From NCBI GenBank assembly GCA_035512495.1, contig DATKDW010000062.1, forward strand, positions 114,957-178,956: DNA of 64,000 nt. Direction: 5' to 3'. Positions within the stretch are counted from its first letter, which is position 1. Every line of letters begins with the position of its first letter. Of this stretch, positions 27,326 through 28,884 are shown in pieces. Origin of the DNA: Acidimicrobiales bacterium. GTDB taxonomy: Bacteria > Actinomycetota > Acidimicrobiia > Acidimicrobiales > CADCSY01. The position numbers and the translations under genes were made by a program. The notes below the pieces were generated by a model. The model searched no databases, was not told the DNA's origin, and was given only the letters and a program-made list of their open reading frames with translations.

Positions 27326-27520
27326 CCTTCGCCTCCATCCGGTCGAACTCCCAGATGTGTGGGCGAGGGGATCCCGCGGTGCCACCACACTTCACCGCCG
27401 GATGCTCCGACGGCCTCATTCGGTGAGGCTGCTCAGGGGACGTCACTCCCCGTCTGCGCAGCCACCGACATCGTAGGAGCAGCCCACGAGTCGAGGCACT
27501 CGAGTTTTCCCTCTGACCAC
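27326..27520 (-). promoter_or_regulatory. T-box riboswitch leader of the AspRS gene
   Basis: On the minus strand 27375-27384 reads TGGCACCGCG, an exact match to the T-box core UGGNACCGCG, preceded by GAAGTGTGG. The variable base is C, which pairs with discriminator G73, as carried by bacterial tRNA-Asp and tRNA-Asn. Upstream, 8-bp arms (27477-27484 with 27427-27434) form a Stem I-like helix. Inside it, GGGGA/TCCCC encloses a loop with the Asp codon GAC (27442-27444, minus strand). GCGGTG (27393-27398) can pair with CACCGC of the T-box. TCGCC just 3' can pair with GGCGA in the ribosome binding site. No T-tract terminator is seen, so control is probably translational. The upstream boundary and specifier are uncertain. 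Confidence 0.8.
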
Positions 27521-27618: not shown

Positions 27619-28824
27619 TCAGGCGGCGGCGGGCTCGGGGAGCCGCAGGTCGAGGACGCCGGGCGGGTGCGTGGTCCAGGTGCGACCGTGGGGATCGGTG
27701 ATGGTGAGGGTGCCGTCGGGGTCCATGGTCTCGCTCCAGCGAGGGAGGTGGGCGAGGTGGTGATGGCGGCAGCACTTGAGGACCAGGTTGGTCAACTTGG
27801 TGGGTCCATGTCGGTTGACGTGGATGACGTGGTGCGCTTCGCACCAACCTGGTGGTCGGTCGCAGCCGGGATGGCGGCAGTGCCGGTCGCGCAGCACGAG
27901 GGCGTTGTAGAGGTTGGCGGGCACGGTGCGGGTAGCGGTGCCGTAGTCGAGGATGCTGGTGCGGCCCTTCATGAGCACCCGGTGCACGGCGCTGTCGCAC
28001 AGGAGCCGCTGCAGGCTGGCCGCCGGCAGGAGCGGCCCGTCGATCACCTGGCCGGGCCCGTCGCCGTCGAGATCGTCGAGGGTGGCGACGATGTTGAGGT
28101 GAGGGCGGTGCCGCCCTCCGGCCCGGGTCTGTTGGTGGTCGAGGAAGAACCGGCAGATGTCTCCCAGCGCGTCGGCGCGGCGTTGGGGGGCGGTGCGCTC
28201 CTCGCCTTCGGCGTCGTCGGTCAGGGCGAGGCGCAGGGCGGCCTCGATCGTGGCGCCGGACTCGGCGTCGAGGGAGCCGGTGAGCTCGTAGCGGTCGCCG
28301 AGGGTGCGCGACAGGCGCAGCGACCGCCGTGCCGGGGCGGGGTCGCCGCGGTCGACCACGGCGTCGGCCCGCTCCTTCCAGCGGCGCATGGCCGTGGCGG
28401 TCTGGGCCACGTCGAGCGGCTCGAGCACTGGAACCAGCTCGGCCTCGTGGTCGGCGAGGAGGCCGATGGTGGCGTCGTCGACGTTGGCCACCACTGCCTG
28501 CACCTGCCCGCCCGAGAGCCGCCCGTCGCGCCAAGCGTCACCGGTGAGCGGTAGCGACCGCAGCCGCCGCGCCGTGCGGGCTGTCGACGACGCCGCCGCG
28601 CCCGACATCGCGGTGTGATGACGCAACCACGCGGTCAACGACGTGGCCCCGTCGGGCGACCACCCCGCATCGACGTCGAAGCGTCCGAGGGCGTCGCTCA
28701 GCTTGGCGTTGAGCAGGTCCACCAGGCGGCACACCTCCGCGATGGCTTCGCCGGAGGCAGGGATGTCGACCTCGTCAATCACCTCAGCCAACCGCTCCAA
28801 CATGTCCCCATGGTAGTCGAACAT
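27619..28824 (-). CDS. DUF222/HNH endonuclease domain protein (13E12 repeat family)
   Basis: A 401-residue protein with an N-terminal DUF222 helical region and a C-terminal HNH nuclease domain (CRHPGCDRPPGWCEAHHVIH and CCRHHHLAH), as in the mycobacterial 13E12/REP13E12 family. These occur in many copies in actinobacterial genomes and are often linked to mobile or repeat-associated DNA. ATG 28824 is chosen because AGGAG lies 6 nt upstream; GTG 28866 would add 14 residues. It lies upstream of the T-box leader in the same orientation. Confidence 0.9.
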   Translation of the reverse strand: MFDYHGDMLERLAEVIDEVDIPASGEAIAEVCRLVDLLNAKLSDALGRFDVDAGWSPDGATSLTAWLRHHTAMSGAAASSTARTARRLRSLPLTGDAWRDGRLSGGQVQAVVANVDDATIGLLADHEAELVPVLEPLDVAQTATAMRRWKERADAVVDRGDPAPARRSLRLSRTLGDRYELTGSLDAESGATIEAALRLALTDDAEGEERTAPQRRADALGDICRFFLDHQQTRAGGRHRPHLNIVATLDDLDGDGPGQVIDGPLLPAASLQRLLCDSAVHRVLMKGRTSILDYGTATRTVPANLYNALVLRDRHCRHPGCDRPPGWCEAHHVIHVNRHGPTKLTNLVLKCCRHHHLAHLPRWSETMDPDGTLTITDPHGRTWTTHPPGVLDLRLPEPAAA

Positions 28825-28884
28825 ACGTTCTCCTGCAACGGTTTGAGCCCATTTGTTCAGCGTCACGACCCGCCCCTCGACCCC

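Follow-up and report, generated by a model that had tools for sequence, protein, structure and literature searches.

A probable tRNA-Asp-sensing translational T-box of minimal architecture upstream of a second aspartyl-tRNA synthetase gene in an Acidimicrobiales bacterium

We analysed a 64-kb stretch of DNA (64,000 nt, hereafter the window) from the genome of an Acidimicrobiales bacterium (GCA_035512495.1). On its minus strand, the gene aspS2 begins with an ATG at 27325-27323, and the core GGTGGCACCGCG (27386-27375) lies upstream of this aspartyl-tRNA synthetase (AspRS) gene. We found that the minus strand at 27463-27323 holds all the parts of a T-box, namely a K-turn Stem I, Stem III, an antisequestrator, and a competing sequestrator of the Shine-Dalgarno (SD) sequence (Table 1). 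The gene directly upstream (27619-28866, minus strand) looks like a DUF222/HNH protein of the 13E12-repeat type. Such genes are often multicopy in actinobacteria, and the relation of this one to aspS2 is probably only positional.

Table 1. Features of the aspS2 leader and gene, listed 5' to 3' with window coordinates
Feature	Position	Strand	Basis or remark
-10-like promoter element TACGAT	27470-27475	-	12 nt upstream of Stem I
Stem I C-stem, 5' strand GGCUGC	27458-27463	-	descriptor search and covariation
K-turn: 3-nt loop GCA then GA, partner GA at 27434-27433	27453-27457	-	
Stem I upper hairpin GGGGA-GUGACG-UCCCC	27436-27451	-	descriptor search, covariation, full-length model
Specifier codon GAC (Asp), within UGACG of the apical loop	27442-27444	-	anticodon GUC of tRNA-Asp
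Stem I C-stem, 3' strand GCAGCC	27427-27432	-	descriptor search and covariation
12-nt linker UCACCGAAUGAG where Stem II and the IIA/B pseudoknot would lie	27415-27426	-	sequence
Stem III GCCGUCGGA-gca-UCCGGCGGU	27394-27414	-	pairing and covariation in orthologs
Antisequestrator helix A1, 5' strand GUGUGG	27385-27390	-	pairing and covariation
T-box bulge UGGCACC; UGGC complementary to tRNA 3' end GCCA	27378-27384	-	
Antisequestrator helix A2 GCGGG-auccc-CUCGC	27363-27377	-	pairing and covariation
Antisequestrator helix A1, 3' strand CCACAC	27357-27362	-	pairing and covariation
Predicted sequestrator UCGCC/GGCGA with inner hairpin CAUCUGG/CCGGAUG	27329-27366	-	MFE fold; cross-species SD pairing
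Shine-Dalgarno GGAGG, 6 nt upstream of ATG	27332-27336	-	sequence
aspS2, archaeal-type aspartate--tRNA(Asn) ligase, 431 aa	26030-27325	-	NF003483

The AspS2 protein scored 541.7 bits on NF003483 (aspartate--tRNA(Asn) ligase; cut-off 353), and its closest solved structure is the non-discriminating AspRS2 of T. thermophilus (1n9w). It shares with 1n9w a His and a Pro at positions that are Trp and Lys in the AspRS of T. kodakarensis (1b8a). We take these positions to mark the acceptance of tRNA-Asn, and judging from the protein sequence AspS2 is probably a non-discriminating AspRS. The same genome also encodes a canonical AspRS on contig C70 (654.6 bits) and GatB, and no AsnRS was found in it above the cut-off.

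Stem I reads GGCUGC-GCA-GA-C-GGGGA-GUGACG-UCCCC-U-GA-GCAGCC (27463-27427), and its K-turn recurs in the leaders of two relatives, G003 and G089, and of Flexivirga, Terrabacter, and Humibacillus. A longer base for Stem I, GGCUGCUC/GAGCAGCC from 27482, was rejected; its 5' strand lies upstream of the -10-like box, and it has no K-turn. As expected of a T-box, the Stem I specifier agrees with the downstream gene (GAC, AspRS), Stem III lies immediately 5' of the antisequestrator, separated from A1 by GAA, and the UGGCACC bulge is flanked by two helices. An earlier sequence-only reading had proposed that an antisequestrator could pair here, and we found it as A1 (6 bp) and A2 (5 bp).

An absence of any regulatory RNA, with a chance UGGCACC and fortuitous pairing in GC-rich DNA, would agree with the high GC content, with the 38 UGGNACC words on the two strands of the window, and with a negative Rfam search (see below). 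However, only one of the 38 words has both antisequestrator helices, and the single GAC-bearing K-turn Stem I of the window lies 60 nt upstream of this word on the same strand. Markov shuffling of the window (150 shuffles) gave on average 0.2 antisequestrators and 0.05 Stem I elements per shuffled window when each was counted by itself, and never the two in their joint arrangement. This zero count, the E-values of held-out covariance models, the covariation, and the conserved position before orthologous aspS2 genes contradict a chance word, and we give this explanation almost no credence.

The Rfam check named in the sequence-only reading came out negative. RF00230 had no match reaching the gathering score in the window, none at E<=10 in the leader, and none at E<=1 across the genome. 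Since models built from orthologous leaders match the window strongly, we regard this miss as a sensitivity problem of RF00230. Among aspS2 leaders, L027 and L038 from Chloroflexota and L091, L096, and L099 from Bacillota passed the RF00230 cut-off. G173, which belongs to the same class as the present genome, has an aspS2 leader that was matched over all 219 positions below the gathering score (E 7e-10). None of the short-form leaders searched was matched. Because the orthologous long-form leaders match, RF00230 does not cover the short form. If the element is functional, standard models overlook short T-boxes.

To score the leader independently of its own sequence, R1, a covariance model of the discriminator domain, was trained on orthologous leaders without the window. 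It scored 55.3 bits in the window (E 4.4e-10), where the next best match reached 18.3 bits. Over 29 loci, R1 matched only in the leaders of G000, G003, G089, and G173 and in none of the 25 others. R2, a full-length model built from 9 Terrabacter-family sequences only, gave an end-to-end match at 27461-27355 (50 bits, E 7.2e-8), which includes the K-turn, GAC, and the linker, and it scored L002 and L004 like the window. MAFFT alignments with a misplaced variable linker (A3, A7-A9) were excluded from the models. A class-wide R1 search at E<=0.01, run like the genome-wide searches with strict filters that lose weak matches, returned one match in the own genome and three elsewhere, of which that in G173 is real. 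The matches in G168 and G370 (L103, L104) were rejected as false, lying in coding-like sequence without a UGGNACC core.

We then compared orthologous leaders. The same element was found upstream of aspS2 in G003 (AspRS 68% identical, same family) and G089 (63%), and the T-box is absent from the aspS2 leader of G028 (AspRS 63% identical). Our sample comprised 80 further aspS2 loci. Most Actinomycetota and many Chloroflexota aspS2 leaders carry GGUGGCACC flanked by A1/A2 helices, and the A1 sequence varies with its pairing intact (GUGUGG/CCACAC, GUGCGG/CCGCAC, GCGCGG/CCGCGC). In the discriminator domain (18 aligned sequences, window excluded), 96.7% of cells are paired and 9 of 19 pairs are doubly changed; 0/500 shuffles reach the observed values, and slid controls pair 37-52%. 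Stem III is paired in 100% of cells in orthologs, with 5/6 pairs doubly changed. For Stem I (8 leaders, window included), 94.5% of cells are paired and the covariation score lies above all 500 shuffles. Thus, the two features on which the sequence-only reading had staked itself, covariance support for Stem I and a UGGN core in orthologous AspRS leaders, are both present, the latter in most of the leaders. Upstream of aspS2, T-boxes occur widely across Actinomycetota and Chloroflexota, and in Actinomycetota an Asp T-box at this place is common rather than the exception for which it had been taken.

The minimal form recurs in other actinobacteria. R1 matched in 71 of 188 genomes of the Terrabacter family, where about twenty examined loci are of the minimal form, followed by an AspRS frame wherever the frame is unambiguously readable. 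Among the actinobacteria that have this form are cultured strains of Terrabacter, Humibacillus, and Flexivirga. In many minimal T-boxes of the Terrabacter family (L118, L121, L126-L137, L139, L141, L143, L144), the bulge reads UGGCACA in place of UGGCACC, which alters an otherwise near-invariant T-box position.

To identify the cognate tRNA, the own genome was searched for the Asp/Asn anticodon-loop pattern, and the only match was tRNA-Asp(GUC), with the loop CUGUCAA and the 3' end GCCA. A tRNA with G73 had been predicted from the variable C of the core, and this tRNA has it; here, as in T-boxes generally, the specifier-reading tRNA has a discriminator base complementary to the variable position of UGGN. 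Since GAC matches GUC and UGGC matches GCCA (G73), the specificity is for Asp and not for Asn. Of the Asp/Asn-type specificity suggested earlier, the Asp part stood and the Asn part fell; an Asn-specific leader was rejected on the specifier GAC. An Asn-type or dual Asp/Asn T-box would suit the enzyme, which belongs to the aspartate--tRNA(Asn) ligase family, has non-discriminating markers, and is predicted to charge tRNA-Asn too, and the tRNA-Asn of G003 and G089 has G73. However, the loop of every ultrashort leader examined has UGACR with no AAC or AAU codon, and tRNA-Asn(GUU) reading GAC needs a G-U36 pair at codon position 1. We consider this alternative very unlikely.

The Asp reading may extend beyond the codon. 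All ultrashort leaders inspected share the U and the purine of UGACR. Part of this set was found by a TGAC pattern, so that the U counts as unbiased evidence only for 8 leaders and where the others were read directly. UGACR is complementary to U33-G34-U35-C36-A37 of tRNA-Asp, and we hypothesize that the outer pairs with the tRNA may form.

To evaluate the control of translation, we examined the pairing potential around the SD. The sequence-only reading had noted a UCGCC element complementary to the ribosome-binding site. We found that UCGCC (27366-27362) can pair with GGCGA (27333-27329), a segment overlapping the SD, and the MFE fold of the leader places the UCGCC-GGCGA helix over the SD together with the inner hairpin. 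Such an alternative SD-sequestering hairpin without a terminator, seen here as pairing potential only, is as expected of a translational T-box, and the translational control proposed earlier is favoured by the sequence. Across 52 leaders, SD pairing is stronger with the anti-SD strand of the same leader than with those of other species (mean -11.6 vs -10.7 kcal/mol; 0/300 permutations). The window's own SD/anti-SD duplex is unexceptional, being equalled or bettered by 27% of shuffles; some pairing comes easily in GC-rich DNA, and this counts against the element. Enforcing the antisequestrator without tRNA is predicted to cost about 13 kcal/mol relative to the sequestered fold. This is a wide margin for so small a tRNA contact to overcome, and in this folding model it counts against the switch. 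In the same MFE fold, the linker UCACC (27426-27422) pairs with GGUGG of the T-box core (27386-27382). This pairing is not conserved in G003 or G089; in the present genome it may serve as an additional lock on the off state.

A T-box that attenuates transcription would have parallels in some orthologous leaders of Chloroflexota, which carry long GC hairpins after the antiterminator. But in the window there is no terminator-like U-run downstream of the antisequestrator, and the 3' hairpin that competes with it takes in the SD along with part of the start region. Transcriptional control here seems very unlikely. For translational control, we propose the following course. The RNA would start at the ultrashort K-turn Stem I, whose apical loop presents the codon GAC. 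With charged tRNA-Asp, UCGCC would pair with the ribosome-binding site and translation would be off. Uncharged tRNA-Asp would dock through anticodon-GAC and 3' GCCA-UGGC pairing and stabilise the A1/A2 antisequestrator; the anti-SD strand would be taken up, the SD freed, and the backup AspRS made. Induction would be expected when AspRS1 or aspartate is limiting.

Taken together, the anatomy, the covariation, the match of specifier and tRNA, the alternative pairings, the conservation, and the co-occurrence with AspRS1 (see below) are seen in the sequences, and the helices, the held-out models, and the tRNA match bear out the earlier claim of a T-box-type leader of an AspRS gene. With high confidence, we propose that the element at 27463-27323 acts as a translational T-box riboswitch, with uncharged tRNA-Asp(GUC) as its ligand and the second AspRS gene, aspS2, as its target. 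The T-box identity itself is as had been read before; what makes the element interesting is its minimal architecture and its link to a second AspRS. The surprising feature overlooked earlier is that the element lacks both the elbow-binding module of Stem I and Stem II.

We found no IDTM in the element, as a 6-nt loop without an apical motif closes Stem I, and no Stem II, S-turn, or IIA/B in the 12 nt from Stem I to Stem III. Similarly short linkers occur in other minimal leaders. A TANNNT box stands at -11 to -15 from Stem I in the window and 8 other K-turn leaders, against a background of 0.65% per 16-nt window. In a second set of K-turn leaders, which overlaps the first by four, the box was found in 18 of 21 and not in the other 3. 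With the box at this place, transcription would begin at Stem I or immediately upstream of it, and since the box lies so close, there is no room for a tRNA-elbow module.

T-boxes have been divided into four classes, which strengthen their hold on the tRNA through the IDTM of Stem I, through the S-turn of Stem II, or through both (PMC10482949). None of these four classes lacks both modules, and the newness of the present form is meant relative to such reviews. Class III needs Stem II, and deletion of its IIA/B pseudoknot costs >1000-fold in tRNA binding (PMC10482949); by analogy, a T-box lacking both Stem II and IIA/B could bind tRNA too weakly to work. A decayed T-box, in which the discriminator and sequestrator survive and tRNA sensing is lost, leaving aspS2 constitutively low or driven by its promoter only, would fit this dependence of class III and the absence of both known tRNA-affinity modules. 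However, genomes of at least two distant groups retain the K-turn, GAC, the short linker, UGGC, and every helix, with covariation, and the distance from the specifier to UGGC is constant (59-61 nt in 7 leaders from two groups). A decaying element would lose these parts, their covariation, and their spacing, and decay is therefore unlikely. We favour, with some reservation, a functional natural T-box of ~110 nt that has no IDTM and no Stem II S-turn with IIA/B and would add a fifth architecture to classes I-IV. It would select tRNA-Asp by codon-anticodon contact, maybe over five pairs (UGACR), and by acceptor-end pairing, which we infer to suffice for a slow translational decision. If so, a T-box with neither IDTM nor Stem II represents the minimum RNA for reading both the identity and the charging state of a tRNA, and it is small enough for structural work and engineering.

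The element resembles the class III T-boxes of Nocardia farcinica and Mycobacterium ileS in its short Stem I without an IDTM, the K-turn, the apical-loop specifier, the SD sequestration, and the actinobacterial host. The ileS T-boxes differ in that they need the Stem II S-turn and IIA/B and read Ile, whereas the window element has an Asp codon and neither module. With class II (Bacillus subtilis glyQS), it shares the lack of a Stem II domain, which is replaced by a single-stranded linker joining Stem I to the discriminator, but glyQS has a long Stem I with an IDTM, is glycine-specific, and acts on transcription. The RF00230-type aspS2 leaders of Chloroflexota, Bacillota, and G173 precede the same gene with the same kind of discriminator, and that of G173 (L102) also shares the GAC specifier context; they differ in having a long Stem I and an Rfam match. 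G173 has a long Stem I (GGUAGCUG apex) and a linker, GCUGCGAGCACCAAUGAGG, nearly identical to GCUGCGAGCGUACGAACGAGG of G003. This makes it plausible that the minimal form arose from a long, Stem II-less T-box by loss of the Stem I apex.

Asp leaders with a long Stem I and apparently no Stem II were also seen in L029 (Kribbella), L043, L068 (Asanoa), and L075, as in L102 (G173). Such leaders (G173, Kribbella L029, Asanoa L068) appear to fit poorly with class II being glycine-specific. In the literature examined, the actinobacterial T-boxes described are those of ileS (PMC1262725, PMC2494555, PMC7583486). In TBDB, actinobacteria were searched with a translational model (PMC7778990), and Asp T-boxes of actinobacteria may be listed there.

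To relate the T-box to the role of aspS2, we recorded the canonical AspRS across genomes. It is kept in 17/17 T-box genomes tested, one of which (L033) has only a weak T-box core, and was not found in 12 of 18 aspS2 genomes without the T-box, G028 included, an absence that may in part reflect incomplete genomes. The association has p = 3e-5, or 0.011 within the close subfamily, uncorrected for relatedness. As the canonical AspRS is present in all T-box genomes tested, the T-box goes with aspS2 as a spare enzyme, and this pattern suggests tRNA-Asp-induced expression of a backup AspRS. Many actinobacteria may keep such an inducible spare AspRS, which bears on the tolerance of AspRS inhibition. 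In G028 (L003), aspS2 begins right after the upstream gene and may be the sole AspRS.

A second synthetase under T-box control beside the canonical one is known from tyrZ of B. subtilis. Like tyrZ, aspS2 of the window would be a T-box-controlled duplicate synthetase gene, and the two differ in amino acid, phylum, and level of control. The two-codon T-box of aspS2-gatCAB in Clostridium acetobutylicum reads Asn and Glu codons and heads the gatCAB operon. It also precedes a non-discriminating AspRS2, but the window element has a single Asp codon, and gatB lies on another contig.

Another type of leader with an ultrashort Stem I was observed in L045, L060, L071, L072, and L146-L151. It has no recognisable F-box and carries a conserved CGCGCGU-CGGCGUACCGACGAGAGG between Stem I and Stem III, which may be a different substitute for Stem II.
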